The position numbers and the translations under genes are program-made. This document shows positions 8,550-35,013 of a stretch of 64,000 nucleotides of DNA, in pieces. Numbering within the stretch: position 1 is the first letter of the stretch; the number at the start of each line of letters is the position of its first letter. Location: NCBI RefSeq assembly GCF_004342445.1, contig NZ_SLWW01000004.1, positions 1-64,000 of the forward strand, read 5' to 3'. The notes under the pieces are model-generated. The model was not told the DNA's origin and did no database searches. It saw only the letters and a list, made by a program, of their open reading frames with translations. The stretch is from Rhodovulum euryhalinum. GTDB taxonomy: Bacteria > Pseudomonadota > Alphaproteobacteria > Rhodobacterales > Rhodobacteraceae.

Positions 8550-9055
8550 GGCGCCACGTCCTCGTCCAGGTGGTGGGGCGCGAACAGCGCGATCAGCCCC
8601 AGCGCCACCAGCACGGCTGCGGTCACCGCCGCCGAGACGGCGATGAAACCCGTGATCCAGAACACCGGGATGCGCAGGTATTCGGTGACGTCGCCATACT
8701 CCCTCGCGCGTCCGGCCAGCATCCAGACCCGCGCCGCCGGCCAGACCAGCATCACCCCGCAGGCGATGTTGATCGCCCCCTCGCGGACGCGGTGCAGGTG
8801 CAGCCGGTCGAACAGCCCGTCGAACAGGTCGACCGCGATATGCCCGCCCCGCGCCGAGATCACCGGCAGGCACGAGAACACCATAACCGCCATGAGCATG
8901 CGGGTCAGTTCCGTGGCCGCCTGGATCGGCGCGTTGAAGGCCGAGCGCAGGATCACGTCGGCAAAGGTCATGCCCATCAGCGCGAACAGCGCCAGGCAGG
9001 CGGTCAGCACCGGCACCCTGCTGGCCCCCCGTGCGACCCGGATCAGCGTTTCCAT
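8546..9055 (-). CDS. TRAP transporter small permease (DctQ family)
   Basis: A 169-residue membrane protein with four predicted transmembrane helices, the usual size and topology of DctQ. The segment RGGHIAVDLFDGLFDR after the second helix is a recognisable DctQ signature (GHIxVD). It forms the membrane complex with the large permease encoded immediately downstream with a 4-bp overlap. The gap to the binding-protein gene dctP is 69 bp. Confidence 0.9.
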   Translation of the reverse strand: METLIRVARGASRVPVLTACLALFALMGMTFADVILRSAFNAPIQAATELTRMLMAVMVFSCLPVISARGGHIAVDLFDGLFDRLHLHRVREGAINIACGVMLVWPAARVWMLAGRAREYGDVTEYLRIPVFWITGFIAVSAAVTAAVLVALGLIALFAPHHLDEDVAP

Positions 9056-9124
9056 GTTCCGTCGCCCCTCCCCAGGGCGGCGGCACCGGGCCGGCAGGTG
9101 CCGGCCCGGCCCCGTGTCAAAGGC

Positions 9125-10147
9125 TCAGTTTGCGGCCATCTCGGCCTTGATCATGTCATAGGCGGCCTGCGCGTCGACGCCGGTGGCGGCCACCTCGGCG
9201 ATCACCTTGTCGCGCACGGTCGCGGCCACCTGTTCGAACGTCGCCGCGTCCTGGGGCGTGGCGTCGATGATCGCGTTGCCCGGCGTGGCCAGCGTCGCGG
9301 CGATGGCCTCGGCGTCGCCTTCCTCCCAGATCGCGCCGATGGCACGGCTGATCGGCTCGCCGAACACCTTTTCCTCCAGCGCCGTCCGGATGTCCTCGGG
9401 CAGGCTGGCGAAGGTGTCCTCGTTCATGATGAAGGCGAAGGAGCCGCGGTAAAGCCCGCCGGGCAGCATGTACATGTTCTGCGCCACCTCGGTCAGCTTG
9501 AAGCCCACGCGCGAGTCGATCGGCATCACCACGCCGTCGGCAGCCTTGGACGCCAGCGTTTCATAGACCTTGGGCGCGGGCACCTGGATGCCCACCATGC
9601 CCAGCGCCGCGCCCACGTCGGCCGCCACGCCCCCGGGGATACGCACCTTCATGCCGGCCGCCTGCGCAAGCTCGGTCACCGGCTCGGCCGACATCAGTTG
9701 GGCGCCGCCATGGGCGTGCATCGCGACGACCTTGACGCCGCGGTGTTCGTCGGCCTGTTTCAGGTAGGTGTCATAGGCCCGCCAATAAGCGACCGAGGCG
9801 GCTTCGGACGTGCCGACATAGCCCGGCAGCTCGATCAGCTTGGTGGTGACGAACCGGCCCGGCTGGTAGCCGTGGAAGATGATCGACACATCCGCCGCGC
9901 CGTCCATGATCAGGTCCATCTGCGCGGGCGCATCGGCCAGACCGAGCTTGAGTTCGGTCGTCACCCTGCCGCCGGTGGCCTCTTCCACCATCTCGGTGAA
10001 CTTGGGCCACATCCTGGCGTTGATGTTGTGGGTGGGCGGCGCCCAGCTAGAAATCACCAGCGTGTAGTCTGCCGCAAGCGCTGCGCCCGAGGCCAGCGCC
10101 AGCGCCGCGCCCGCCAGAAGCGCGCCCAGTTTCGTCCGTATCGCCAT
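9125..10147 (-). CDS. TRAP transporter periplasmic solute-binding protein (DctP family)
   Basis: The 340-residue protein begins with a clear signal peptide ending near ALASGAALA, followed by a DctP fold beginning YTLVISSWAPPTHNIN. The conserved arginine segment appears as KVRIPGG near residue 166. This protein determines substrate choice; the ligand is not evident but the aryl-acid gene neighbourhood makes an aromatic carboxylate plausible. It is the first gene of the operon, with a strong GGAGGAG ribosome site, and faces the divergent paaI across a regulatory gap. Confidence 0.9.
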   Translation of the reverse strand: MAIRTKLGALLAGAALALASGAALAADYTLVISSWAPPTHNINARMWPKFTEMVEEATGGRVTTELKLGLADAPAQMDLIMDGAADVSIIFHGYQPGRFVTTKLIELPGYVGTSEAASVAYWRAYDTYLKQADEHRGVKVVAMHAHGGAQLMSAEPVTELAQAAGMKVRIPGGVAADVGAALGMVGIQVPAPKVYETLASKAADGVVMPIDSRVGFKLTEVAQNMYMLPGGLYRGSFAFIMNEDTFASLPEDIRTALEEKVFGEPISRAIGAIWEEGDAEAIAATLATPGNAIIDATPQDAATFEQVAATVRDKVIAEVAATGVDAQAAYDMIKAEMAAN

Positions 10148-10424
10148 GGTCTCCTCCCAGGTTGCGATGGCGGATGGCCGGTCAGGATCAGGGGCGCCCG
10201 GCAGCCCGCCGGATGGCGGCGTTCGGTTGCGTCACTTGGCCCTCCCGCCCGTCATTGACCCACCTTTGGGGCTGTGCATCATGCCGCAAGAAATGATCGC
10301 AAAGGCATTGGCCCATGACCGGCAATTTTCTTGCGCCCGGATACAAGGCCCGCGGCGGACATGGCGCCAAACCTGACCGCCCGGCCGCGATGCGCCTATG
10401 TGTCCGAGCGCCGCAGGACGCGCC
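10148..10424. promoter_or_regulatory. Divergent regulatory region between dctP and paaI, with a 9-bp inverted repeat
   Basis: The 277-bp gap must contain both divergent promoters. The most distinct element is an inverted repeat: CGCAAGAAA at 10285-10293 and TTTCTTGCG at 10327-10335, spaced so that the arm centres are 42 bp apart, about four helical turns. The right arm is itself part of a smaller palindrome, GCAA-N5-TTGC. A plus-strand TTGACC at 10255-10260 may be a -35 element for paaI, but no good -10 follows. No regulator gene lies next to the locus, so the binding protein is unknown. Confidence 0.45.
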
Positions 10425-20075: not shown

Positions 20076-20702
20076 TCAGGCGGCCTGTGCCTCGTCCACC
20101 GGGGCGATCGCTTCGCGGGCAAAGCGGGCCGGCATGCCGAGCACGGCATAGCGCCGGCCGTCCTCGTCGTTGCGGTAGCTCTCGCCCATCTGCCGCACGT
20201 CATAGCCAAGCTGGCGCAGCGCCCGCATCAGCGCCAGCGAAGACAGGCAGATCATCTGCGTCGCGCCCCGTTTCCGCACGATGCCCACCAGCCCGTCGAC
20301 GATCAGCCGCAGGCACTCGCCCCGATCCGCGGCGGTGGCCAGCGCGTCGTCGATCACCAGCCGGGTACATTCCCAGACGCGGGGACTGGCGATGTCCTCG
20401 GGCATGATCCGGGGCGGGATGTGGGGCAGCTTGCCCTGAAAGGCATCGCGCAGCATGTAGGTATGCGGCCCCCAGGTCGAGGTGGTCGGCATCGTTCGCG
20501 CGCCCCCCACGACGCGGCCGTCCTTCAGCACCACCGAGTAATGCGCCTGTGGCGTGTCGTACTGGTCCATCTCGACCTGTCCGTCATGCGGTACGTCCCA
20601 GCCCAACTGGTCGACGAAGACGCGTTTGCGCAGTTCGAGGAAATCGTAGAAAGCGCTGCCGTGCCGGTGAAGGTCGGCGAAGGTGAAGGCGAGGTTCTGC
20701 AT
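20076..20702 (-). CDS. luxI: LuxI-family acyl-homoserine lactone synthase
   Basis: The 208-residue enzyme makes an AHL signal from S-adenosylmethionine and an acyl donor. The invariant family residues are present: the R-x3-F-x5-W block (LRKRVFVDQLGW), E-x-D-x2-D (EMDQYD), GGARTMPT and WECTRLVID. The ATG at 20702 follows AAGGA with 8-bp spacing. It lies in tandem after the luxR gene on the same strand, the common luxR-luxI order. Two palindromes in the 187-bp gap between them are candidate control sites. Confidence 0.94.
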   Translation of the reverse strand: MQNLAFTFADLHRHGSAFYDFLELRKRVFVDQLGWDVPHDGQVEMDQYDTPQAHYSVVLKDGRVVGGARTMPTTSTWGPHTYMLRDAFQGKLPHIPPRIMPEDIASPRVWECTRLVIDDALATAADRGECLRLIVDGLVGIVRKRGATQMICLSSLALMRALRQLGYDVRQMGESYRNDEDGRRYAVLGMPARFAREAIAPVDEAQAA

Positions 20703-20889
20703 GGGTTGGATCCTTCTGTGCTTGCCCGGGGTCAATCTGGGCGAAGCTGAAGGGGTTAACCAACCCTTAAGTTGTATTTAGCATGTGGCACACACGCTTA
20801 GGCAAGTATCTGTTGCAAAAGGAGTTTATCTATCAACCTCAGGTTGTTGTTCGGGCTAGAATTGCACGCATAAAGTGCTTTCGACGTGG
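20703..20889. promoter_or_regulatory. luxI promoter region with two palindromes (candidate lux boxes)
   Basis: Perfect palindrome CAACCTCAGGTTG (one-base centre) at 20834-20846 and a longer imperfect one at 20750-20768, in which AAGGG and CCCTT flank GGTTAACC. The region is AT-rich compared with its neighbours. Classical lux boxes are about 20 bp with ACCTG/CAGGT arms; the first palindrome resembles such arms brought together. Assigning LuxR binding to either is inference. Confidence 0.5.
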
Positions 20890-21540
20890 CTAGATGACGC
20901 CCCGGCTGCGCGCGATCGAGGCGGCCTGCGACGGGGTCTGCGCGCCGAGCTTGCGCTTGGCATTCGCCAACCGCGCCTTGACCGCGCTCATCGAGATGTC
21001 GAGTTCGGCCGAGATCTGTTTCAGTCGCAACCCGTTGGCTTGCAGCCGCAGCGCCTCGGTCTCGGCGCGGGTCAGCTTGCGCGGTGGCGCCCCGGCCTTG
21101 TGCAACTGGGTCACGATTGCCAGCAATTCGTGCATCTCCACCGCCGAGAAGGGCCGGTCGGAGCGGACGAAATTGCCGTAGCTGCGTCGCCCTTGGTCGT
21201 CGGGGAACAGCACGCTTGTCACCGCGCCGTGGCGCAGCCCGTGGCGCCGCGCCTCTTTCAGGACGCCCCGCGGATCCTCGACACCGATCCTGTCCCAGGT
21301 GGTCGTCCCGGTATGGGCATAGGCCCATTTCATCACCGGGTCATGCACCACCAGCCCATGCGCGGTGTAATGCTGCACCCAGGCCTCGGGCAGGCGGTTC
21401 AGTTCTTCGGCGGGATAAGAGAAACCGACACGCAAAGCCACATAACAGCCCGCAGGGGCGAGTTCGGTCAGGCGGTCGGAAAATCTCTTGATCAGGCTCA
21501 TGAGAATGGGCTTCACGTCCCGTTGTTTGAATTCAACCAC
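20890..21540 (-). CDS. luxR: LuxR-family AHL-responsive transcription regulator
   Basis: The 216-residue protein has an N-terminal autoinducer-binding domain with the conserved W-x3-Y...DP...W set (AWVQHY, HDPVMKWA, TTTW) and a C-terminal HTH of the LuxR type (LTRAETEALRLQANG, then ISAELDISMSAVKARLANAKRKLGA). It presumably binds the AHL made by the adjacent LuxI. It is divergent from a gene encoding a similar ligand-binding domain with no HTH. The 78-bp gap between the two holds short inverted repeats. Confidence 0.93.
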   Translation of the reverse strand: MVEFKQRDVKPILMSLIKRFSDRLTELAPAGCYVALRVGFSYPAEELNRLPEAWVQHYTAHGLVVHDPVMKWAYAHTGTTTWDRIGVEDPRGVLKEARRHGLRHGAVTSVLFPDDQGRRSYGNFVRSDRPFSAVEMHELLAIVTQLHKAGAPPRKLTRAETEALRLQANGLRLKQISAELDISMSAVKARLANAKRKLGAQTPSQAASIARSRGVI

Positions 21541-21618
21541 GAAAGGTGTAGGGGATAGTCCTAACAGGTGGCATCAGGGAACGCCACTCAACTTTTGCGC
21601 GAGGAGACGTGAGGAGGG
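21541..21618. promoter_or_regulatory. Divergent promoter between luxR and the AHL-domain-only gene
   Basis: Two inverted repeats are visible: TAGG (21549-21552) with CCTA (21560-21563), and GTGGC (21568-21572) with GCCAC (21583-21587). The arms are short, so chance is possible, but both sit in a gap only 78 bp long that must control two divergent quorum-sensing genes. A strong GAGGAGGG ribosome site precedes the rightward gene. Confidence 0.35.
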
Positions 21619-22113
21619 ATGAACCGGGTAAGCAAGCTCGCGGAACTTCTTTCCGCATTGGACAGCCTAAGTGACACAGGCTTTGCACTCGCAATACACA
21701 TCCGTTTCACACGCCCTCTGCTTCTGTATCAAAGCTATTCCAGTGAGTGGAGCGAAATCTACTCCGAGAAGGGGCTCATGCTGACCGATCCGGTGGTACG
21801 CTGGGGGCTCGAGCGGACGGGCGTGCTGTCATGGGACGATCCCGGCCTCGACGATCCCGCCGGGGTTGTGCCGCTTGCGCGGCAGTACGGGCTGAGAAAC
21901 GGCATCACGATTTCCACGGGTCCGGTGACATCGCGCACGATCTCGGGCCATACGCGGTCCAGCGGGCCGTTCCAGCCGGACGAGATTAGCCGGCTGAAAT
22001 GCCTTGTCGAGACGGTGCATGAGGTGACCGAGGGTCTGGATGCGCTCGACTGCCCCGAGATGGAGGCGTTGCGCGCGCTCGATTTCTCGCGCGACCGGCT
22101 TTCGTCCGGCTGA
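21619..22113 (+). CDS. LuxR-type autoinducer-binding domain protein lacking a DNA-binding domain
   Basis: The 164-residue protein aligns over its whole length with the N-terminal ligand domain of the divergent LuxR: EWSEIYSEKG, LTDPVVRW and GVLSW preserve the W, Y, D-P and W ligand-pocket residues. It stops after the linker helix; no HTH follows in any frame before the next gene at 22247. The strong ribosome site and intact pocket argue against a pseudogene. It could sequester AHL or form inactive heterodimers with LuxR, as TrlR/TraM-like dampers do in other species (inference). Confidence 0.82.
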   Translation: MNRVSKLAELLSALDSLSDTGFALAIHIRFTRPLLLYQSYSSEWSEIYSEKGLMLTDPVVRWGLERTGVLSWDDPGLDDPAGVVPLARQYGLRNGITISTGPVTSRTISGHTRSSGPFQPDEISRLKCLVETVHEVTEGLDALDCPEMEALRALDFSRDRLSSG

Positions 22114-22246: not shown

Positions 22247-24172
22247 ATGGACAGGACCGGCAAAGCGTCGATGGGGCAGGGCGGAGATCTGGCGATGACG
22301 CGCGGTTTTCCGCCCGTCGCGGCCGATCCGTTCGGTGTGGCGCGCAGCGCCTGGCGGGTCGCCGAGATCGCGCTGGCCCATGGCGCGGCGATCGCCGATG
22401 ACCAGGGCAGCCGCTGGCAGGCCGGTCTCACGCAGGCCGCGACCGTCCTGCGCGTGGCGCGGACCAGCGGGCGGCACGCCACCCCGGCCGACTGGGCCGG
22501 GCATTGGCGCGACTACCTGCGCGATTCGGCCGAGCGTGCGGTACTGCTGGCCGATATCCTGCGCGACCGCTCGGATGCGGTTCTTGCCGCCGAGGGCGAG
22601 GATGCGCCGCCCGCCCTGGGCCATCCCCACGAACCTGTCATGGATGCCGGGGCGCTGCCCCGGCCGGGCAACGCCCATCTGGTGCGCTTGGTGCCCGCCA
22701 AGGCGCCCGATCCCGCGGCGCGGCCTGTGCTGCTGATCGGCGCGCGGGCGGGGCAGGGCGCGGGGCTTGATGCTGCGGTGGCGGTGGCGCTTGCCGCCGG
22801 TCTGCCGGTCTATGCGGTTGTTTTCGCCCGCGTGCCGGTGCCCGGCCAGACCGTCGCCGACATCATCGACGCCTGCGCCGCCTTCGCCGCCGAGGTCGCC
22901 CGGCGCCACCCGGACGCGCCGCCGCCGCTGGTCGCCGGGCAGGGGCCGGGCGGCTGGGCGCCGCTGGTTTTGGCCGCTGCCCATCCCGGTTGCGCGGGCG
23001 CGGTGCTGCTGGACGGCGTGCCGGTCGCACCGGGCCGCACTGCGCTCGCGCTGGCGGGCGGGGCGCTGCCTGCGCTGTTGTCCGACCTGGGCGGCGGGCT
23101 TTTCGACGGCGCGACGCCTGCCCTGGCCGCCGCGCTGGCCGATCCAGCGGGCGCGCTGGTCCGCCCCAATGCCACGCTGTTTGCCGAGGCCGACCGCACC
23201 GGGCCCCGCGCCGTCGAGGCCGCGCGCCGGGCCGGGGGGCTGCCGCTTCTGACGGCGGACGAGGCGCGCTGGACCGCGGCGGCGCTGCCGCCCGGCGACT
23301 TGCTGGCGCGCAACGCCGCCGCGCTGGCACCCGGCCGGCCGCTCGACCTGCGCGCGGTTGCCGTACCGGTGGTGCTGATGGCCCGCCCGGACGACCCCGC
23401 CGCCGCCCCGGCCGAGGCGCTGGGCTGGCTGCGCCAGAGCTATGCCGATGCCGCCGCCATCCGCGCCGCGGGCCAGCGCATCGTCCTGCTGTGCGATCCC
23501 GCCGCCGGGCCGGGCCTGCTGATGGCCGGGACCATCGCGGGCGCCCCCGCGCTGCGCGCGATCGAGGCGCTGCCGCCTGGGCTCTACGCACTCTGTGTCG
23601 ACAAGGTCGAGGGGTGGGGGGCCGCCCGCCGGGCCGAGCTGTCGCTTGCCCCCTGCGACCTGGACGACCTTGCCGGGGGGGCGGGCCATCCAGCGGACGC
23701 CCGGACCTTTGCCGCCGCCGCGCGCGCCACGCGGATGCAGGCCGACAGCTACGAGGCGCTGGCCCGGCCGCTGCTTTGCGCCGCCATCGCCCCGCCGCTG
23801 GCCGAGGCGTCGCGCGCCCTGCATCCGGTGCGGCTGTGGGCCGCCGCGCTGTCCTCGCGCAACCCGGCGCTTGGCCCGGTCGCGGCGGCCGCGGCCCGGG
23901 TGCGGGACACCCGCCAGCCCGCCGCCCCGGACAATCCCTTCACCTGGATGGAGCGGATGGGCGTGGACCTGACCTGCCAATGGCTCGACCTGACCCGCGC
24001 GGTGCAGTCTGCCGCGGTCGAGACCGGATTCCACGCGGTCTGGGGCAATCCCTGGATGCGCGCCTTCGCCCCGCCCGCCGCTGCCGCTGCGCCAAGGCCC
24101 GCGCCAGACGCCGCCCCGCCCCGCCGCGCCCGGCGCAAGCCCGCCCAACCCACGGAGACCGCCGCCGAATGA
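22247..24172 (+). CDS. DUF3141 (poly-3-hydroxyalkanoate synthase-like) protein with altered nucleophile elbow
   Basis: The 641-residue alpha/beta-hydrolase-like protein matches the DUF3141 family, whose genes I recall beside phosphotransacetylase-acetate kinase genes, as here. Family members and PhaC synthases carry a G-x-C/S-x-G elbow; this one reads VAGQGPGGW near residue 230, with glycine or proline at the nucleophile position, so hydrolase/synthase activity is doubtful. The C-terminus is a basic Pro/Ala-rich tail. GGAGGG precedes the ATG. The stop overlaps the next start by 4 bp. The phasin-like or granule role sometimes suggested for the family is unproven. Confidence 0.7.
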   Translation: MDRTGKASMGQGGDLAMTRGFPPVAADPFGVARSAWRVAEIALAHGAAIADDQGSRWQAGLTQAATVLRVARTSGRHATPADWAGHWRDYLRDSAERAVLLADILRDRSDAVLAAEGEDAPPALGHPHEPVMDAGALPRPGNAHLVRLVPAKAPDPAARPVLLIGARAGQGAGLDAAVAVALAAGLPVYAVVFARVPVPGQTVADIIDACAAFAAEVARRHPDAPPPLVAGQGPGGWAPLVLAAAHPGCAGAVLLDGVPVAPGRTALALAGGALPALLSDLGGGLFDGATPALAAALADPAGALVRPNATLFAEADRTGPRAVEAARRAGGLPLLTADEARWTAAALPPGDLLARNAAALAPGRPLDLRAVAVPVVLMARPDDPAAAPAEALGWLRQSYADAAAIRAAGQRIVLLCDPAAGPGLLMAGTIAGAPALRAIEALPPGLYALCVDKVEGWGAARRAELSLAPCDLDDLAGGAGHPADARTFAAAARATRMQADSYEALARPLLCAAIAPPLAEASRALHPVRLWAAALSSRNPALGPVAAAAARVRDTRQPAAPDNPFTWMERMGVDLTCQWLDLTRAVQSAAVETGFHAVWGNPWMRAFAPPAAAAAPRPAPDAAPPRRARRKPAQPTETAAE

Positions 24173-25581
24173 GGATCGAGGAAAACCGCACCTTTGCCGA
24201 GATCGCCCCCGGCGACAGCGCCGAGATCGTCCGCGTCTGCACCGAGGACGATTTCTATGTCTTCGCCACCGCCTCGGGGAACCACAACCCGCTGCACCTG
24301 GCGCGCCATGACGGCGACGGCGACGGAGCGGCCGAGGTGGTGGCCCCCGCGATGTGGGTGGCCTCGCTGATCTCGGCGGTGATCGGCAACATCCTGCCCG
24401 GCGCGGGCACGCTTTACCGTGCGCAATCGCTGCGCTTCGAGGCCCGCGCCCATGCCGGCGACGAACTGGTCGCGCGGGTCACGGTCACCGAAAAGCGCCC
24501 CCCCGACGGCATCGTGATGGCGACCGAGGTGACGCGGAAATCCGACGGCGCCACGATCCTGACCGGCGAGGCCGAGGTGCAGGCGCCGCCCCGCAAGCTG
24601 ACCTTCGAGGATCTGGATATCCCCGGCCTGCTGATCGAGCGCCACCGCCATTTCGATGCGCTGATCGACCGCGCCGAACCGCTGCCGCCGCTGCCGACCG
24701 CCGTGATCGCCCCCGAAGAGCCCAGGTCGCTGGGCGGCGCGCTGCTGGGGGCGCGGCACACGATCATCGCGCCGATCCTGATCGGCGACCCGGCCCGGAT
24801 CGCGGCCGCCGCGCGCGAACTGGGCGCCTCGCTGGACGGGATCGAGATCGTCGAGGCCGCCGACCACGACCGCGCCGCCAACATCGCCGTCGACCTTGTC
24901 GCGCAGGGCCGGGCGGCGGCGCTGATGAAGGGACATCTGCACACCGACGTGATGCTCAAGGCCGCGCTCCGCAAGGAAAAGGGCCTGCGCACAGGGCGCC
25001 GCTTTACCCATGTCTTCGTGATGGACGTGCCCGGCGTGGCCCATCCGCTGCTGGTCACGGATGCCGCGATCAACATCGCGCCCGACCTGCGCACCAAGAT
25101 GGACATCGTGCAGAATGCCATCGACCTGGCGCGGTCCATCGGGATCGAGGTTCCTAAGGTGGGCGTGCTGTCCGCCGTCGAGACCGTGAACCCCGATATT
25201 CCCTCGTCGCTCGACGCGGCGCTCCTGTCCAAGATGGCCGAGCGCGGGCAGATCACCGGGGGCATTGTCGACGGGCCGCTGGCGATGGACAACGCGGTCG
25301 ACATCTCGGCCGCGCGTACCAAGGGGATCACCAGCCAGGTGGCGGGCCGGGCCGAGGTGCTGGTGGTGCCGAACATCGACGCGGGCAACATGCTGGCAAA
25401 GCAACTGGCCTATATCAGCCATGCCGAGGGGGCGGGCGTGGTGATGGGCGCGCTGGTGCCGATCATCCTGAATTCGCGGTCGGACGACGACAAGGCACGG
25501 CTGGCCTCGTGCGCGGTCGCGGCACTGCACAATGCGCGGCTGACCGGGCTTCTGCCGGTCGTCAGCCGGGCGGCGGAGTAG
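24169..25581 (+). CDS. MaoC-like hydratase / phosphate acyltransferase fusion
   Basis: The 470-residue fusion has an N-terminal hotdog MaoC-like domain (residues 1-150) and a C-terminal phosphate acetyl/butyryl transferase (about residues 165-465; LMKGHLHTDV, THVFVMDVPG and the C-terminal VPNIDAGNMLAKQL). The Pta part converts acyl-CoA and phosphate to acyl phosphate, which acetate kinase turns to acid and ATP. In the MaoC part the hydratase motif reads SGNHNPLH: the catalytic aspartate is Asn38, while His43 remains. The hydratase is therefore probably inactive or altered. Coupled to DUF3141 upstream; ackA follows after 6 bp. Confidence 0.88.
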   Translation: MRIEENRTFAEIAPGDSAEIVRVCTEDDFYVFATASGNHNPLHLARHDGDGDGAAEVVAPAMWVASLISAVIGNILPGAGTLYRAQSLRFEARAHAGDELVARVTVTEKRPPDGIVMATEVTRKSDGATILTGEAEVQAPPRKLTFEDLDIPGLLIERHRHFDALIDRAEPLPPLPTAVIAPEEPRSLGGALLGARHTIIAPILIGDPARIAAAARELGASLDGIEIVEAADHDRAANIAVDLVAQGRAAALMKGHLHTDVMLKAALRKEKGLRTGRRFTHVFVMDVPGVAHPLLVTDAAINIAPDLRTKMDIVQNAIDLARSIGIEVPKVGVLSAVETVNPDIPSSLDAALLSKMAERGQITGGIVDGPLAMDNAVDISAARTKGITSQVAGRAEVLVVPNIDAGNMLAKQLAYISHAEGAGVVMGALVPIILNSRSDDDKARLASCAVAALHNARLTGLLPVVSRAAE

Positions 25582-25587
25582 GCGCCG

Positions 25588-26787
25588 ATGCCCCATGCTC
25601 TGACGCTGAACGCGGGATCGTCCTCGCTGAAATTCGGCCTGTTCGAACTGGGCGACGGACGCGGCGAGCCCGCGCCCCGCATCCTGGGCGAGATCGACCG
25701 CATCGGGTCCGAGCCGCACATGCGCGCCACCCGCCAGGACGGCACGCTGCTGTCGGACGCGCCGCTGCCCGGCGAGGACGCGGCCGATCACGCCGGCGCG
25801 CTGGCCCGGGCGCTGGAACTGATCGCCCGCGACCGGCCGCATGCGCAGATCGTCGCGGTCGGGCATCGCGTCGTGCATGGCGGGCCGGATCATGCCGCGC
25901 CGGTGGTTCTCGGCCCCGCGATGCTGGACCGTCTGGCCGCGCTCGAACCGCTGGCGCCGCTGCATCAGCCGCACAACCTGGCGGGCGTACGCGCGGCCTT
26001 CGGGGCGTTTCCCGGGGCGGTGCAGGTGGCCTGCTTCGACACCGCCTTTCACCGCCATCACCCCTGGGTGAACGACACGTTCGGCCTGCCGCGCGCCTAT
26101 TACGACAAGGGCGTGCGCCGCTATGGCTTTCACGGGCTCAGCTACGATTACATCGCCGGGCGGCTGGCCGAGATCGCGCCGCACCTGCATGCCGGCCGGG
26201 TGATCGTCGCGCATCTGGGCAACGGCGCGTCCATGTGCGGGATGATCGGCGGGCGGTCGATTGCGTCCTCGATGGGGTTCTCGGCGCTCGACGGGTTGCC
26301 GATGGGCACGCGCTGCGGCCAGCTTGATCCCGGTGTGGTGCTGTATCTGATGCAGCACGAGGGGATGACGGCCGACGAGATCTCGGACCTGCTCTATCGC
26401 CGATCGGGGCTGTTCGGGCTGTCGGGCCTGTCGAACGACATGCGCCGGCTGGAACAGGCCGGCACCGATGCCGCGCGCGAGGCGATCGCCTATTTCGTGT
26501 TTCGCATCCGGCGCGAACTGGGCGGGCTTGCCGCGGCGCTGGGCGGGCTTGACGCGCTGGTGTTCTGTGGCGGTATCGGCGAACATTCGGTCCCGATCCG
26601 GCGGCAGGTCTGCGAGGGCATGGGATGGATCGGGTTGGAACTCGACGAGGCCCGCAACACGCGGGGCGAGACGGTGATCAGCACCGACCTGTCCCGCGTC
26701 CGGGTGCTGGTGATCCCGACGGACGAGGAAATCGTGATCGCGCGGGCGGCCCGCGACATGCTGGCCGCCCGCCGCGCCGCCGGGTAG
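25588..26787 (+). CDS. ackA: Acetate/propionate kinase
   Basis: A 399-residue acetate kinase, usual family length, with LNAGSSSLKF at the N-terminus, the GHRVVHGG and HLGNGASM loops, and CGGIGEH near the C-terminus. It makes ATP from acyl phosphate produced by the upstream phosphotransacetylase, or runs in reverse to activate acetate. It closes the DUF3141-pta-ack operon. The next operon begins 95 bp downstream with an FNR-type promoter. Confidence 0.95.
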   Translation: MPHALTLNAGSSSLKFGLFELGDGRGEPAPRILGEIDRIGSEPHMRATRQDGTLLSDAPLPGEDAADHAGALARALELIARDRPHAQIVAVGHRVVHGGPDHAAPVVLGPAMLDRLAALEPLAPLHQPHNLAGVRAAFGAFPGAVQVACFDTAFHRHHPWVNDTFGLPRAYYDKGVRRYGFHGLSYDYIAGRLAEIAPHLHAGRVIVAHLGNGASMCGMIGGRSIASSMGFSALDGLPMGTRCGQLDPGVVLYLMQHEGMTADEISDLLYRRSGLFGLSGLSNDMRRLEQAGTDAAREAIAYFVFRIRRELGGLAAALGGLDALVFCGGIGEHSVPIRRQVCEGMGWIGLELDEARNTRGETVISTDLSRVRVLVIPTDEEIVIARAARDMLAARRAAG

Positions 26788-26804: not shown

Positions 26805-26846
26805 TTGATGCGGATCAACGCAGGCCCGCCCCCCGGCGCCTAGGCT
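26805..26846 (+). promoter_or_regulatory. FNR/FnrL-type promoter of the ppsA operon
   Basis: TTGATGCGGATCAA at 26805-26818 is a perfect match to the FNR consensus TTGAT-N4-ATCAA. TAGGCT at 26841-26846 is a reasonable -10 hexamer. If transcription starts 7 bp past that hexamer (26853), the box is centred at -41.5, the standard position for class II FNR activation. The ppsA ATG is 30 bp further, behind GGAGGGAGGAG. This predicts oxygen-limited induction of ppsA and the genes after it. Confidence 0.75.
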
Positions 26847-26882: not shown

Positions 26883-29255
26883 ATGGCCCGCCATGTGAAA
26901 TGGTTCGAGGATCTCCGTCGCGGCGATGTCGCCACCGTCGGCGGCAAGAACGCCTCGCTGGGCGAGATGGTCGCGGCGCTGGGCGGGCAGGGCATCAGGG
27001 TGCCCGGCGGCTTTGCCACCACCGCCGACGCCTTTCGCGCCTACATCACCCATAACTACCTTGACGCCCGCATCGCCGACACGCTGGCGGCACTCGACGC
27101 CCACCGGATCGACCTGCACGAGGCGGGCGCCACGATCCGCCGGATGATCCGCGAGGGCCACTGGCCCGACGACATCCTTGCCGCGATCCGCGACGCCTAT
27201 GCCGAGCTGTCGCGCCGGGCAGGCGTGGACGCGGTGGCGGTCGCCGTGCGCAGTTCCGCCACCGCCGAGGATCTGCCCGATGCCAGCTTCGCCGGCCAGC
27301 AGGAAACCTATCTGAACGTCCGGGGCACCGAGGACCTGCTGGCGGCCTGCCGGCGCTGTTTCGCGTCGCTGTTCACCGACCGGGCGATCACCTATCGCCG
27401 CCTCAAGGGGTTCGATCACGACAAGGTCGCGCTGTCGATCGGGGTGCAGCGGATGGTGCGCTCGGATATCGGCGGCTCGGGCGTGATGTTCTCGCTCGAT
27501 ACCGAGACGGGCTATCCCGACCTCGTGCTGATCAACGCGGCCTGGGGGCTGGGCGAGAACGTGGTGCAGGGCGCCGTCACCCCCGACGAATACCAGGTCT
27601 ACAAGCCCTTCCTTGACCGGCCGGGCCTCGTGCCGATCCTGGAGAAGGGGCTGGGGGCCAAGGAAAAGAAGATGATCTATGGCCGCGACGGGCAATCTAC
27701 CCGGAACGTGCCGACCTCGAAGGCCGAGCGCGGCCGCTTCGTGCTGTCGGACGCCGAGATCCTCGATCTCGCCCGGATGGCCGTCACGATCGAGCGGCAC
27801 TACGGGATGCCGATGGACATGGAATGGGCCCGCGACGGCGAGACGGGCGAGCTGTTCATCGTGCAGGCCCGCCCCGAAACCGTGCAGTCGCGCGCCGACG
27901 CGGCGGGCTTTCGCAGCTACAGCGTCCACGACAAGGGGCCGACGCTGCTGACCGGGCTTTCGGTGGGCGCGGCGGTCGCCGCGGGCCCGGTCTGCGTGAT
28001 CGAAAGCGCCAGGGACATCGACCGCTTCGTCGACGGCGCGATCCTGGTCACCTCGATCACCGACCCCGACTGGGTCCCGATCATGAAGCGCGCCGCCGCC
28101 ATCGTCACCGACCATGGCGGGCGCACCAGCCACGCCGCCATCGTCAGCCGCGAACTGGGCCTGCCCGCCATCGTCGGCACCGGCGACGCGACGCATTTGC
28201 TGCATGACGAGCAGGAGGTGACGGTCTCCTGCGCCGAGGGCGAGACGGGCTATGTCTACGCGGGCATCGCGCGCTATTCGGTCGAGGACATCGCGCTGTC
28301 GGACGTGCCCGAGACGCGGACGCGGGTGATGCTGAACATGGCCAACCCCGCCGCCGCGATCCGCTGGTGGCGGCTGCCGTCCGCGGGGGTCGGGCTCGCC
28401 CGGATGGAATTCGTCATCAACAACGCGATCAAGGCGCACCCGATGGCGCTGATCCACCCCGAACGGCTGGACGATGAGACCCGCGGGAAGATTGCGGAAC
28501 TCACTTCGGGTTTCTCCGATAACCAAAAGTTCTTCATCGAGAAACTGGCGATGGGCCTGTCGCGGATCGCAGCGCCCGTCTATCCCGATCCGGTCATCGT
28601 GCGGATGAGCGACTTCAAGACCAACGAATATGCCGAGCTGCTGGGCGGGCGGGGCTTCGAGCCGAAGGAAGAGAACCCGATGATCGGCTTCCGCGGTGCA
28701 TCCCGATACTATTCCGACGCCTACGCGCCGGGCTTCGCACTGGAATGTCAGGCGATCCGGCGGCTGCGCGACGGGATGGGATTCGACAACGTGATCGTGA
28801 TGATCCCCTTCTGCCGCACCCCCGAAGAGGCCGACCGCGTTCTTGAAGTCATGGCCGCAAACGGTTTGAAACGCCGGGAAAAGGGCCTTCAGGTCTACGT
28901 GATGTGCGAGGTGCCCTCGAACGTCATCCTGGCCGAGGAGTTCGCGAAGCGCTTCGACGGCTTCTCGATCGGGTCGAACGACCTGACGCAGCTGACGCTG
29001 GGGGTCGACCGGGACTCGGCCGAGCTGGCCGCGCTGTTCGACGAACGCAACGCCGCCGTGCAGTGGATGATCCGCAGCGTGATCGAACGGGCGCACGCGG
29101 TCGGCTGCAAGGTCGGCTTCTGCGGTCAGGCGCCGTCGAACGACCCCGGCTTCGCGCGGCTGCTGGTCGGTTACGGCATCGACACGATCTCGGTCACGCC
29201 CGACAGCTTTCTCGCCGTCAAGCGCAACGTGGCCGAGGCCGAACGCATGACCTGA
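26883..29255 (+). CDS. ppsA: Phosphoenolpyruvate synthase
   Basis: The 790-residue enzyme converts pyruvate and ATP to PEP, AMP and phosphate. It has the N-terminal ATP-grasp domain (NASLGEM, VRSSATAEDLPDASFAGQQ split by a few residues), the phosphohistidine swivel loop DHGGRTSHAAIVSRELG, and the C-terminal TIM-barrel with GSNDLTQLTLG and the catalytic cysteine in GFCGQAPS. Being first in an operon with acyl-CoA ligase and 2-oxoacid dehydrogenase genes, it may channel the pyruvate node towards gluconeogenesis under low oxygen. Confidence 0.95.
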   Translation: MARHVKWFEDLRRGDVATVGGKNASLGEMVAALGGQGIRVPGGFATTADAFRAYITHNYLDARIADTLAALDAHRIDLHEAGATIRRMIREGHWPDDILAAIRDAYAELSRRAGVDAVAVAVRSSATAEDLPDASFAGQQETYLNVRGTEDLLAACRRCFASLFTDRAITYRRLKGFDHDKVALSIGVQRMVRSDIGGSGVMFSLDTETGYPDLVLINAAWGLGENVVQGAVTPDEYQVYKPFLDRPGLVPILEKGLGAKEKKMIYGRDGQSTRNVPTSKAERGRFVLSDAEILDLARMAVTIERHYGMPMDMEWARDGETGELFIVQARPETVQSRADAAGFRSYSVHDKGPTLLTGLSVGAAVAAGPVCVIESARDIDRFVDGAILVTSITDPDWVPIMKRAAAIVTDHGGRTSHAAIVSRELGLPAIVGTGDATHLLHDEQEVTVSCAEGETGYVYAGIARYSVEDIALSDVPETRTRVMLNMANPAAAIRWWRLPSAGVGLARMEFVINNAIKAHPMALIHPERLDDETRGKIAELTSGFSDNQKFFIEKLAMGLSRIAAPVYPDPVIVRMSDFKTNEYAELLGGRGFEPKEENPMIGFRGASRYYSDAYAPGFALECQAIRRLRDGMGFDNVIVMIPFCRTPEEADRVLEVMAANGLKRREKGLQVYVMCEVPSNVILAEEFAKRFDGFSIGSNDLTQLTLGVDRDSAELAALFDERNAAVQWMIRSVIERAHAVGCKVGFCGQAPSNDPGFARLLVGYGIDTISVTPDSFLAVKRNVAEAERMT

Positions 29256-29282
29256 GCCCTTGAAGCCATGGGAGGAGGAGAC

Positions 29283-31018
<1,736 letters not shown>

Positions 31019-31022
<4 letters not shown>

Positions 31023-33013
31023 CCGGCGACAAGCCCCACCTGACGCGCGCCCATGTGCTGGACCTGCTTCGCCACATGATCCGCATCCGCCGCTTCGAGG
31101 ACCGCTGCGCGGAACTTTACACGCGCGAGAAGATCCGCGGCTTCCTGCATCTCTACGACGGGGAGGAGGCCGTCGCCTGCGGTGTCATCCCGGTTCTGGG
31201 GCCGGGCGACCGGATCGTGGCGACCTATCGCGAGCATGGCCACGCGCTGGCGCGCGGTGTGCCGATGGACGCGGTCATGGCCGAGATGTTCGGCAAGGCG
31301 ACGGGCAGTTCCGGCGGGCGGGGCGGGTCGATGCACATCTTCGACGCGGGCCACAATTTCTACGGCGGCAATGCCATCGTCGGCGGCGGGCTGCCGCTGG
31401 CCGCGGGCCTCGCGCTCGCCGACCGGATGCGGGGCGCGCCCCACGTGACAGCCTGCTTCTTCGGCGAGGGGGCGGTCGCCGAGGGCGAGTTCCACGAATC
31501 GATGAACCTTGCGGCGCTCTGGGGCCTGCCGGTCCTTTTCGTCTGCGAGAACAACGGCTACGCCATGGGTTCGGCGCTGGCGCGCACCGAGGCGCAGACG
31601 CAGTTGACCGCCAAGGCCGAAAGCTACGGCATGGAGGCCCACCAGGTCGACGGCATGGACGTGGTCGCGGTCGAGGCCGCCACCCGGCAGGCGCTTGCCC
31701 GCATCCGCGAGACCGGCAAGCCGGTCTTCCTCGAGGCGAAAACCTACCGCTTCCGCGCCCATTCGATGTTCGACGCCCAGCTCTACCGCGACAAGGCCGA
31801 GGTTGAGGAATGGCGGCAGAAGGGGCCCATCGTCCGGTTCCAGGGCTGGCTCTTGCAGAACGGCCTGATCCACGAGGATGACGTCGCGGCCATCGAACAG
31901 GTGGCCGAGGCCGAGATCGACGCCGCCACAGCCTTTGCCGAGCAAAGCGCTTGGGAACCGGTCGAAAGCCTGACCCGCCACGTGATGGCCGAGGACCGCC
32001 CGCCGCCGCCACCCGCCGCCGAACCGTCGGGCAGGACCGTCACCATGACCTATCGGGAAGCGGTCAGACAGGGCATCCGCGACGCGCTGGCCCGCGATAC
32101 CCGTGTGTTCCTGATGGGTGAGGACGTGGGCGCCTATGGCGGCTGCTATGCCGTGTCCAAGGGCCTGATGGCCGAGTTCGGCGAGGACCGCATCCGCGAC
32201 ACGCCGCTGTCGGAATCGGGCTTCACCGGCGCGGGTATCGGCGCGGCGGTGGCGGGGATGCGCCCCATCGTCGAGGTGATGACGGTGAACTTCTCGCTGC
32301 TCGCGCTCGACCAGATCCTGAACACCGCGGCCACGCTCCGGCACATGTCGGGCGGACAGTTCGGCTGTCCGGTCGTGATCCGCATGGCGACCGGCGCGGG
32401 CCGGCAACTGGCCGCGCAACATTCCCACTCGCTGGAAGGCTGGTTCGCCCATATCCCCGGCCTGCGCGTGCTGGCGCCCGCCACGATCGAGGACGCGCGC
32501 GGCATGCTCTGGACCGCGCTTCAGGACCCCGACCCGGTGCTGATCTTCGAGAACGTCATGCTCTACAACCGCGAGGGCGAGATCGACGAAGGGGCGGGGC
32601 CGGTCGGGATCGACCGCGCCGCGATCCGGCGGCCGGGCCGGGACGTCAGCCTCATCACCTATGGCGGGTCGCTCTGGAAGGTACTGGAGGCCGCCGAGGC
32701 GCTGGCCGCAGACGGGATCGAGGCCGAGGTGATCGATCTGCGCACCCTGCGCCCGCTGGACGAGGACACCATCGCGGAGAGCGTGAACCGCACCCGGCGC
32801 GCGGTGGTGGTGGACGAGGGCTGGCGCTCGGGCTCGCTTGCCGCCGAGGTGATCGCGCGGATCGCCGAACGCTGCTTCTGGTCGCTGGACGCGCCGCTGG
32901 CGCGCGTCTGCGCCGCCGAGGTGCCGATCCCTTACCCTGCGCATCTGGAAGCGGCCGCGATCCCCCAGGTGCCCGCCATCGTCGCCTCGGCCAAGGCCAC
33001 GCTGGGGAGGTAG
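31019..33013 (+). CDS. 2-oxoacid dehydrogenase E1, fused alpha and beta subunits
   Basis: The 664-residue protein is a fusion. Residues 1-330 are an E1 alpha subunit with the ThDP motif [17 protein letters not shown]...[10 protein letters not shown] Pro-rich linker follows, and residues 340-664 are an E1 beta subunit ([42 protein letters not shown]). Acetoin and pyruvate dehydrogenases usually have separate alpha and beta genes. The enzyme decarboxylates a 2-oxoacid (pyruvate or acetoin-type substrate) and passes the acyl group to the lipoyl arm of E2, encoded 4 bp downstream. No E3 (lipoamide dehydrogenase) gene is in this operon. Confidence 0.9.
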
Positions 33014-33017
33014 GCGG

Positions 33018-34163
33018 ATGGGCGTCTTCACCATGCCGTCACTGGGTGCCGACATGGAGGCCGGCCGGCTGACCGAATGGCTGGTGGCGCCCGGCGAAAC
33101 CGTGAAGCGGGGCGACATCGTCGCCGTGGTCGAGACCCAGAAGGGCGCGATCGAGATCGAAATCTTCGAGGAGGGCACGGTCGAGCGCCTCATGGCCGAG
33201 GTCGGCCAGAGCCTGCCCGTCGGCGCCCCGCTCGCCCTGATCCGCGGGGCGGGGGAGGCGGCCCCCGAGGCCCCGTCCGAACCGGCGGCCCCGGCATCCG
33301 CGCCCGCCGCGGCCCCCGATCCCGCGCGGCCCGGGCCGGCCTCGAAGGCCGTCCCCGCGACCGGCATCGCCGCGTCGCCGGCGGCGAAGGCGCTGGCCGC
33401 CGCGCGCGGCATCGACCTCGGCGCCCTGACCGGGACCGGGCCGGGCCGGGCCATCGTTCTGGCCGATGTCGAGGCCGCCGGGGCGAAACCGGCCGACCCG
33501 CGCGCGGAAATGCGCAAGGCCATCGCCGCGGCCATGGCGAAGTCCAAGCGCGAGATCCCGCATTACTACCTCTTCCACCGGATCGACCTGCAGGCCGCGA
33601 CCGACTGGCTCGCCGCGACGAACGCCGCCCGCCCGCCCGAAGAGCGCCTGCTGATGGGCGCGCTGATCGCCCGGGCGACGGCCCTGGCGGCCCATGCCTC
33701 GGCCGGGGTGAACGGCCATTTCATCGCCGACGGCTTCCGACAGGCCGGGTCGGTCCATCTGGGCATCGCGGTGGCGCTCCGGGGTGGCGGGCTGATCGCC
33801 CCCGCGATCCGCGATGCGCACCTGCTGCCGCTCGACGCGATGATGGCGGCCCTGCGCGACATGGTCGCCCGCGCCCGCGCCGGGCGGCTCAGAAGCTCCG
33901 AACTGACCGATGGCACGATCACGCTCTCGAGCCTCGGCGAGACCGGGGTCGAGGCGATGGCGGGCATCATCTACCCGCCGCAGGTCGCGCTGGTCGCCGT
34001 CGGCGCGCCCACACCCGAACCGGTCGCACAGGGCAGGCAGGTCTCGGTCCGCCAGACCGTCACCGTCTCGCTCGCCGCCGATCACCGGGCCAGCGACGGG
34101 CGGATCGGCGCGAAATTCCTGGCCGGGATCGACCGGCACCTGCAACACCCGGAGGACCTATGA
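33018..34163 (+). CDS. Dihydrolipoamide acyltransferase (E2)
   Basis: The 381-residue E2 has one N-terminal lipoyl domain with the lipoylated Lys42 in VETQKGAIEI, a Pro/Ala-rich linker, a peripheral E1/E3-binding domain (SPAAKALAAARGIDL...GTGPGRAIV), and the acyltransferase core with the DHRASDG motif containing the catalytic His and Asp. The substitution ETQK for the common ETDK is a small oddity. It presumably transfers the acyl group to CoA; the acyl carrier protein gene overlapping it by 4 bp raises the possibility that a phosphopantetheine arm is an alternative acceptor (speculative). Confidence 0.92.
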   Translation: MGVFTMPSLGADMEAGRLTEWLVAPGETVKRGDIVAVVETQKGAIEIEIFEEGTVERLMAEVGQSLPVGAPLALIRGAGEAAPEAPSEPAAPASAPAAAPDPARPGPASKAVPATGIAASPAAKALAAARGIDLGALTGTGPGRAIVLADVEAAGAKPADPRAEMRKAIAAAMAKSKREIPHYYLFHRIDLQAATDWLAATNAARPPEERLLMGALIARATALAAHASAGVNGHFIADGFRQAGSVHLGIAVALRGGGLIAPAIRDAHLLPLDAMMAALRDMVARARAGRLRSSELTDGTITLSSLGETGVEAMAGIIYPPQVALVAVGAPTPEPVAQGRQVSVRQTVTVSLAADHRASDGRIGAKFLAGIDRHLQHPEDL

Positions 34164-34408
34164 CAGACGACGACATCCGCGCGGCCTATCTTGTCGCCCT
34201 CATCGACGTGGCGCCCGATCTCTCGGCCGACGGGATCGGCCCCGACGACCACCTGCAGGACGACCTCGACCTCGATTCGATGGACGTGCTGAACCTTGTG
34301 GCCGCGCTGCACAAGGCGCTGGGCGTCGATATCCCCGAGGCCGACTATCCGCAGATCGCCACGCTCGCCCTTGCCGTGCCCTATCTCGCGCGCCGCCTGG
34401 CCGCCTGA
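34160..34408 (+). CDS. Acyl carrier protein
   Basis: The 82-residue acidic protein has the phosphopantetheine attachment site LDSMD, with the serine near residue 40, and the four-helix ACP pattern. It differs from housekeeping AcpP (DSLD) and is not beside fatty acid synthesis genes. Its ATG lies in the stop of the E2 gene, behind GGAGG, so it is made with the dehydrogenase complex. It ends the operon. It may carry acyl groups made by E2 or by the acyl-CoA ligase; this is inferred only from position. Confidence 0.9.
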   Translation: MTDDDIRAAYLVALIDVAPDLSADGIGPDDHLQDDLDLDSMDVLNLVAALHKALGVDIPEADYPQIATLALAVPYLARRLAA

Positions 34409-34569: not shown

Positions 34570-35013
34570 ATGCTGACCCAGATCGCCATCGGCACCCTGA
34601 TCATCCTCGTGACGATCCTCGTCGCGGCCGCGGGCTTCTGGCTGGCCGAAACGGCGATCACGCGCGCCAACCCCTGGCTCGTCCGCCGTCCGCACGCGCC
34701 GAAACTGGTCGTGGTGCTGATCAGCGCGGTTCTGACCGTTCTGGGCGTGATGACGGTGTCGGTCTGGCTCTGGGCGCTGGCCTTCCTCTGGCTCGGCGTC
34801 TTTCCCGCGCTCGAACCCGCAGCCTATTTCTCGCTCGTGGTCTTCACCACGCTCGGCTTCGGCGACATCCTGCTGCCGGTGGACTGGCGCATCCTCGGCG
34901 GTATGGCGGCGGCGAACGGGCTGCTGAACATCGGGCTCTACACCGCCCTTCTGGTCGAGGCGCTGCGCCGGGTCCGCTCGGAACAGGTACGCGGCGTGGT
35001 GGACGAGCGCTGA
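34570..35013 (+). CDS. Two-transmembrane ion channel protein (potassium-channel-like)
   Basis: The 147-residue protein has an N-terminal helix, a second helix pair around residues 50-80, and a pore-loop segment TTLGFGD, which resembles the TVGYGD selectivity filter of potassium channels, followed by a final helix. The filter is non-canonical (LGFGD), so selectivity is uncertain. There is no cytoplasmic RCK or ligand domain. It stands alone between the repeat element and the ABC transporter operon. Confidence 0.75.
   Translation: MLTQIAIGTLIILVTILVAAAGFWLAETAITRANPWLVRRPHAPKLVVVLISAVLTVLGVMTVSVWLWALAFLWLGVFPALEPAAYFSLVVFTTLGFGDILLPVDWRILGGMAAANGLLNIGLYTALLVEALRRVRSEQVRGVVDER

Follow-up and report, generated by a model that had tools for sequence, protein, structure and literature searches.

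A dedicated acyl carrier protein is encoded in a conserved bacterial gene cassette with a pyruvate dehydrogenase-like E1 and E2 and a variant acetate-CoA ligase

In the genome of Rhodovulum euryhalinum (Rhodobacteraceae; assembly GCF_004342445.1), a run of genes was found in which a gene for an acyl carrier protein (ACP) closes an operon for a 2-oxoacid dehydrogenase. The window analysed here is the first 64,000 nt of contig NZ_SLWW01000004.1, in which protein families were assigned with Pfam and NCBIfam and start codons were read from the sequence. The run lies on the + strand and is headed by PpsA, a phosphoenolpyruvate (PEP) synthase (26883..29255; TIGR01418, 1097 bits). It continues with Acs, an AMP-forming acetate-coenzyme A (CoA) ligase (29268..31022) that scores 831.8 bits in NF003313 against a curated cut-off of 729 and has SGHL replacing SGHR in its A8 motif; a thiamine-diphosphate 2-oxoacid dehydrogenase E1 with fused alpha and beta parts (31019..33013; NF006667); an E2 with lipoyl, E3-binding and acyltransferase domains (33018..34163; PF00364, PF02817 and PF00198); and an ACP of 82 aa whose phosphopantetheine serine lies in the motif LDSMD (34160..34408; PF00550, 37.5 bits). 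The Acs and E1 genes overlap by 4 bp, a 4-nt gap separates E1 from E2, and E2 and ACP share a 4-bp ATGA overlap. A preliminary description of this DNA had already reported a fused E1, an E2 and an ACP stacked with 4-bp overlaps or tiny gaps after an acetate-CoA-ligase-like gene, and our coordinates and start codons agree with it, as do the PF00364 and PF00550 matches with its Lys42 lipoyl site (ETQKG) and its LDSMD motif; the PEP synthase gene falls inside its interval, though unnamed there. It had also stated that the locus holds neither an E3 nor a fatty acid synthesis gene. On other contigs, the genome encodes two lipoamide dehydrogenases that pass the family cut-off and two weaker relatives that do not, and thus there is no local E3. 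The second statement stands for FabI, the one fatty acid synthesis gene looked for individually: no FabI-like open reading frame (ORF) was found in the window.

The preliminary description had named conserved synteny as the check to make, and a lack of the ACP at syntenic loci elsewhere as a refutation; the outcome was strongly in its favour. Of 118 loci (115 distinct E2, three pairs of loci being the same gene), 117 have the ACP gene immediately 3' of the E2 gene in the same orientation, as do a further 6/6 loci examined later. In 97 of the 106 loci with both ends readable, the overlap between the E2 stop and the ACP start was exactly 4 bp. These loci came from several searches. A species-wide scan of one genome per species (84,980 species), from which the best 80 of at least 587 relatives were kept by E2 similarity, gave an ACP in 80/80 loci, and 11 of 11 loci newly found through a sample of 398 genomes of the phylum, which is the less biased test, also had it. 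Within the bacterial family, 26 of 198 genomes matched the E2 at E 1e-40 or better; in 22 of them the E2 was close, and 20 loci other than the window's own were taken with long flanks, while the remaining one (L024), with a short flank, also had the ACP. The other four family matches, at 33-40% identity, were to more distant E2 and had no ACP. Among plasmids, an ACP touched the E2 match in 14 of the 30 records listed, and all 10 plasmid regions fetched contained the gene set. As a control, the same hidden Markov model (HMM) of the ACP was run over 1.5 kb on each side of ordinary E2 genes, namely 30 of 36 pyruvate dehydrogenase (PDH) E2 matches and the two other E2 genes of the R. euryhalinum genome, and no ACP was found beside any of these 32 loci (31 distinct genes, one having been counted twice). 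This HMM does pick up the fatty-acid carrier AcpP of the same genome, at 41 bits. Chance adjacency of ACP and E2 is ruled out by this control.

Acs was detected in 99 of the 118 loci. A fused E1 was present in 76 loci and separate E1 alpha and beta genes in 33, nine loci being unclassified, and E2 was a separate gene. When flanking ORFs were clustered over 106 loci, no extra gene recurred nearly as often as these four; the PEP synthase, found in 14, is near the set in a minority of loci. Acs-E1-E2-ACP is thus a conserved cassette. The preliminary description had treated Acs as a mere neighbour, a view that no longer fits: Acs is a member of the unit, has an active-site change peculiar to the cassette (see below) and stays with the ACP in the one genome in which the unit is split.

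That genome (G062) accounts for the sole exception among the 118 loci, L038, where E1 and E2 stand without Acs or ACP alongside. Its cassette ACP was found at another place (58% identity, E 1.5e-26), directly behind a cassette-kind Acs (68.6% identity) and again with a 4-bp overlap, so that the genome retains all four parts, divided into an E1-E2 pair and an Acs-ACP pair. L038 was therefore rejected as proof that the ACP is dispensable. In this genome the ACP is positionally tied to Acs and not to E2, and, being coupled to Acs away from E1-E2, it belongs with both enzymes.

In the 398-genome sample, the E2 was found at E 1e-60 or better in 13 genomes (about 3%), and among the matches listed the ACP profile reached 86 bits or more in 14 genomes. 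Thirteen of these 14 are exactly the E2-positive genomes, with the ACP adjoining E2. In the fourteenth (G458), Acs, E1 alpha, E1 beta, E2 and ACP stand in a row, with an E2 at 39% identity that falls below the cut-off. Among the listed matches below 86 bits were one degenerate second copy at 62 bits, in a genome already counted, and then matches from 57 bits downward, which are presumably ordinary ACPs. The cassette kind of Acs was found in 6 of 150 genomes searched, all six E2-positive, a sample that may not include the other seven E2 genomes. Cassette hosts include Alpha-, Beta- and Gammaproteobacteria, Desulfosarcina, a bin labelled Myxococcota, Acidobacteriota, Chloroflexota and Actinomycetota including a Mycobacterium; the cassette occurs under six phylum labels, and several hosts are metagenome bins. 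Its distribution is patchy but wide. In the E2 tree, the cassette E2 proteins were separated from the six ordinary E2 included with a support of 100/100, and Mycobacterium and Rhodococcus grouped with betaproteobacteria, a placement that suggests horizontal transfer. Pairwise distances of Acs, E2 and ACP correlated over 81 loci (r 0.80-0.84; 0 of 500 permutations as high), which is the agreement expected of genes that would have been inherited together. Two side observations concern single hosts. In G458 (L231:1004-4907), the ACP is followed by what we guess, by eye from ORF starts, to be a formate-channel-like gene and then a formate-dehydrogenase-like gene. In G380 (L232:5812-6441), a second, degenerate cassette-type ACP (DVDSTDF) lies away from the main copy, about 3 kb from a metallo-beta-lactamase-fold hydrolase.

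The E1 alpha part scores above the curated PDH cut-off (TIGR03182, 437.2 bits versus 393.85), and the E2 scores below that for PDH E2 (TIGR01349, 226 bits versus 445). The lipoyl lysine was kept in 103/103 extracted E2 sequences (15 of the 118 were not extracted). The aspartate of the catalytic motif DHRxxDG, which reads DHRASDG in the window protein, was kept in 101 of the 103. An E3-binding domain is present in the window E2 (PF02817, 39.3 bits), and its region is conserved in a 26-sequence alignment. Since the lipoyl lysine, the E3-binding region and DHRxxDG are conserved, the E2 should work as an acyltransferase and recruit the housekeeping E3. The E1 alpha, E1 beta and E2 domains and their catalytic motifs resemble those of the alphaproteobacterial and mitochondrial PDH complex. 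Different from that complex, the cassette E2 forms a separate group, has no local E3, is tied to an ACP and an Acs, and coexists in R. euryhalinum with two further E2 genes. Group-specific E2 residues were also found, such as Arg175 and Arg255 in place of Glu in ordinary E2.

The Asp-Ser attachment motif of the ACP was invariant in 109/109 aligned sequences and present in eight others that were printed. Compared with AcpP of the same genome, the first Glu of helix II was replaced by Asn in 96 of 109, and the following EEE most often by His, Lys and Arg (commonest residues His/Ser/Gly, Lys/Gln and Arg, respectively), while helix III carried Asp-Tyr (102 and 97 of 109). The acidic helix II residues of AcpP are the usual contacts for fatty acid synthesis enzymes. 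As they are replaced here, the cassette ACP is probably not meant for fatty acid synthesis. It scores below the fatty-acid AcpP cut-off (TIGR00517, 37.4 bits versus 70.45), and its sequence sets it apart as a distinct family. Misplacement of a fatty-acid ACP was rejected as an explanation: the genome has two further carrier proteins, a separate AcpP of the fatty-acid type on contig C8 and another on C13, which we take to be AcpXL, and the cassette ACP is distinct in family. An AlphaFold2 model of the ACP gave a four-helix fold (pLDDT 95.8), whose closest folds are known ACPs of several kinds; the predicted structures describe the ACP and E2 folds alone and not a complex.

Cassette Acs resembles AcsA (solved relatives 9g79 and 8rpk) in scoring above the NF003313 cut-off, and reaches 520 bits to 9g79. 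It differs from AcsA in that its gene is coupled to that of E1 or ACP and in that the A8-motif Arg is changed to Leu. The residue after SGH was Leu in 81/81 aligned cassette Acs, and a looser scan gave 89 Leu and 2 Met among the 91 readable of 96 sequences; at ordinary Acs-type loci of the same bacterial family, it was Arg in 28/28 readable of 30. We take this position to be Arg526 of Salmonella Acs. In the portions of PMC10455477 covered here, Arg526 is described as in contact with the adenylate phosphate and as probably stabilising the state in which the thioester forms, and Arg191 and Arg584 as contacting the CoA phosphates. The second half-reaction of the cassette Acs is probably altered. 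Loss of CoA binding was considered as well, with a mixed outcome, one of the three published arginines being lost and two largely kept. An adenylating enzyme that takes holo-ACP and rejects CoA has a precedent in the fatty acyl-AMP ligases (FAALs; PMC8460268, in part), which belong to a different family and are without the positively charged CoA-binding residues that the cassette Acs largely keeps.

Upstream of the window operon lies a perfect FNR box, TTGATGCGGATCAA (26805..26818, + strand), in the 95-nt gap between ackA and ppsA and 64 nt 5' of ppsA; at these positions is the only exact match to TTGATNNNNATCAA in the 64-kb window. Across the cassette loci, an FNR-type box (TTGAY-N4-RTCAA) within 400 nt 5' of the operon was exact in 30 of 92 distinct regions and within one mismatch in 67 of 92. 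Shuffling gave means of 0.04 and 1.7, respectively, and random windows of the same loci gave 18 exact and 75 one-mismatch boxes in 1756. Most boxes (52/67) begin 40-110 nt before the estimated start codon. The count omits five contig-end regions (L093, L096, L119, L125 and L132), and PpsA was taken as the first gene in 3 of 95 regions. FNR-type low-oxygen control is thus predicted for most of the operons tested. A DosR box (GGGAC-N4-GTCCC) with fewer than two mismatches was found 5' of none of the five actinobacterial cassettes tried, of which the L119 region had been wrongly cut. Neighbours in one or more cassette records include universal stress proteins, Hsp20, a nitroreductase, nicotinate phosphoribosyltransferase, Crp/Fnr or DosR-like regulators, AckA, a MaoC-phosphotransacylase and FabI. 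Neighbours of the same kinds occur in the lxa locus of Burkholderia cenocepacia and in DosR/OsdR/DevR regulons, as far as the published main texts on them extend; by term counts, those on the lxa locus and the DosR/OsdR islands gave no sign of the cassette gene set, supplements being outside this scope. In Pseudomonas, pyruvate fermentation reportedly acts together with a stress protein in anoxic survival.

The preliminary description knew of no named system with such genes. Several do exist, namely QncN/QncL/QncM (quinocarcin), SclQ1-4 (scleric acid), NapB/NapC/NapD (naphthyridinomycin) and DinS/DinT/DinU (dnacin), in which, according to the relevant parts of PMC6335953 and PMC7570522, a two-carbon unit passes from a thiamine enzyme to a lipoyl E2 and on to an ACP, supplying glycolyl-ACP to peptide synthetases for antibiotics. 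The cassette resembles them in encoding a thiamine E1, a lipoyl E2 acyltransferase and a free-standing ACP together. Unlike the cassette, with its E1 of PDH type and FNR-type regulation, these systems lie in antibiotic clusters and use a ketose. Gene organisation differs as well: QncL fuses E1 beta to E2, which is a separate gene in the cassette, and the corresponding SclQ3 and SclQ4 are also split. The table of such systems in PMC6335953 lists neither an E3-binding domain nor an acetate ligase, and the cassette has both. A search by title and the beginning of the abstract in the open-licence literature, with subscription papers outside its scope, gave no description of the cassette. Relative to these systems, the broad distribution of the cassette, its setting in anoxia and its dedicated variant Acs are new.

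By textbook accounts, pyruvate dehydrogenase and acetyl-CoA synthetase both work with CoA. The preliminary description had suggested that the ACP phosphopantetheine could be an acceptor alternative to CoA, yielding an acyl-ACP straight from pyruvate or a related 2-oxoacid. In line with this, we propose, holding the case for and against it to be evenly balanced, that the cassette is a low-oxygen acetyl-handling module in which the product of E2 is acetyl-ACP. Judging from the family scores, E1 would decarboxylate pyruvate and load the acetyl group on the lipoyl arm of E2; E2 would hand it to the phosphopantetheine of the dedicated ACP, instead of or besides CoA; and the housekeeping E3 would re-oxidise the lipoyl arm via the E3-binding domain. 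The same ACP would partner the variant Acs, which would interconvert acetyl-ACP (or acetyl-CoA) and acetate. In an energy-starved cell, pyruvate might thereby be fermented to acetate for survival, AMP and pyrophosphate yielding ATP; this is the least certain step. The direction from pyruvate to acetate would give the most closed pathway and appears the likely one, at less than even confidence, and acetate activation is also possible. A dedicated ACP that accepts the acyl group from E2 would be the most economical reading, and such a transfer has a published precedent in QncN/QncL/QncM (PMC6335953, in part).

Several observations weigh against the proposal. Acs was not detected in 19 of the 118 loci, of which 11 have flanks too short to reveal it and several are cut by contig ends. 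L080 has PpsA-E1-E2-ACP with no Acs between, and L073 (Paracoccus salsus, 7966-10260), read by eye, keeps just the tail of E1 before E2-ACP and looks truncated. The split into E1-E2 and Acs-ACP was seen in a single genome, and neither of its two operons has an FNR box. No box within one mismatch was present in 25 of the 92 regions, among them those of the Actinomycetota and Acidobacteriota covered and of some alphaproteobacteria. Two plasmid E2 proteins are without the aspartate of DHRxxDG (DHRVSGG in L030:12001-13158 and DHRVSHG in L032:11992-13149). In Acs, the Arg584 equivalent was kept in 81/81 and the Arg191 equivalent was Arg or Lys in 68/81, positions placed by eye on alignments to solved relatives; as these CoA-phosphate arginines are largely kept, Acs may still use CoA. 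Moreover, gene linkage cannot separate a substrate carrier from a structural subunit.

The retained CoA-phosphate arginines also favour another explanation, in which CoA would still accept the acyl group and the ACP would serve the complex as a structural or regulatory subunit, much like the mitochondrial ACP of complex I. Comparison with solved proteins, by sequence as well as by fold, places mitochondrial complex I ACPs among the nearest relatives of the ACP, beside ordinary bacterial ones. On the other hand, the phosphopantetheine serine is invariant, and the ACP placed behind Acs in G062 is not what a subunit of E2 would predict; we regard this explanation as unlikely. Ranked next, and likewise improbable, is a reverse or other flow, in which Acs and E1-E2 would both load the ACP for biosynthesis, such as fatty acid priming, polyhydroxybutyrate-type chemistry or another acetylation. 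FabI and a MaoC-phosphotransacylase near the Sulfitobacter cassette, and a MaoC-phosphotransacylase with a DUF3141 protein in the window, would fit such a flow, but the absence of any further gene recurring nearly as often as the four, and an ACP without the acidic helix of fatty-acid ACPs, argue against it. A true counterpart of the QncN/QncL/QncM system, turning a ketose phosphate into glycolyl-ACP for secondary metabolism, would share the same three functions of E1, lipoyl E2 and ACP (PMC6335953 and PMC7570522, in part), but we consider it highly improbable given an E1 alpha of PDH rank, a regulation that points to anoxia and the lack of any peptide or polyketide synthetase among the listed neighbours in eight annotated plasmid records, whose gene tables are incomplete. 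Least probable of all is a role of the ACP as octanoyl donor for lipoylation of the cassette E2, since, although lipoate is needed by this E2 and ACP supplies octanoyl to LipB, no ACP gene adjoins the ordinary E2 genes, the linkage to Acs and the Acs-ACP pair of G062 are left unexplained, and LipB is reported to bind ACP weakly (PMC9307952, in part).

If E2 does deliver acetyl to the ACP, a second acetyl carrier would be added to primary metabolism beside CoA, and there would be a concrete answer to how strict aerobes gain energy from pyruvate during anoxic survival. A stronger form of this idea, which we hold to be rather doubtful, is that the cassette constitutes a widespread and mobile CoA-independent acetyl node, in which a pyruvate dehydrogenase and an acetate ligase would both have been adapted to a single dedicated ACP, so that under anoxia pyruvate would become acetyl-ACP and then acetate, AMP and pyrophosphate yielding ATP and the CoA pool staying untouched.

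In addition to the cassette, the window encodes a second gene run on the + strand immediately upstream, including a DUF3141 protein (22247..24172, with ATG at 22247; PF11339, 323 bits), a MaoC-phosphotransacylase fusion of enoyl-CoA hydratase and phosphate acetyltransferase type (24169..25581; NF006045, 627 bits), whose ATG at 24169 overlaps the DUF3141 stop, and the acetate/propionate kinase AckA (25588..26787; TIGR00016, 350 bits, and PF00871). Judged from gene spacing, with the ackA-ppsA gap separating the two runs, DUF3141-MaoC-phosphotransacylase-AckA and PpsA-Acs-E1-E2-ACP would form two linked operons. A row of similar kind was seen in Sulfitobacter (L033:1473-6597), where an alpha/beta hydrolase, FabI, a MaoC-phosphotransacylase and AckA follow one another. 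Together, the Sulfitobacter row and window positions 22247-26787 look like a pathway that would convert a hydroxybutyryl thioester to butyrate, gaining ATP and using NADH. Just 5' of the DUF3141 operon (20076-22113) lie a LuxI-type autoinducer synthase (PF00765), a LuxR regulator and a second protein with the autoinducer-binding domain alone; LuxI enzymes consume acyl-ACP. On the other side, 3' of the ACP gene, a small ion-channel protein (PF07885) is encoded at 34570-35013.

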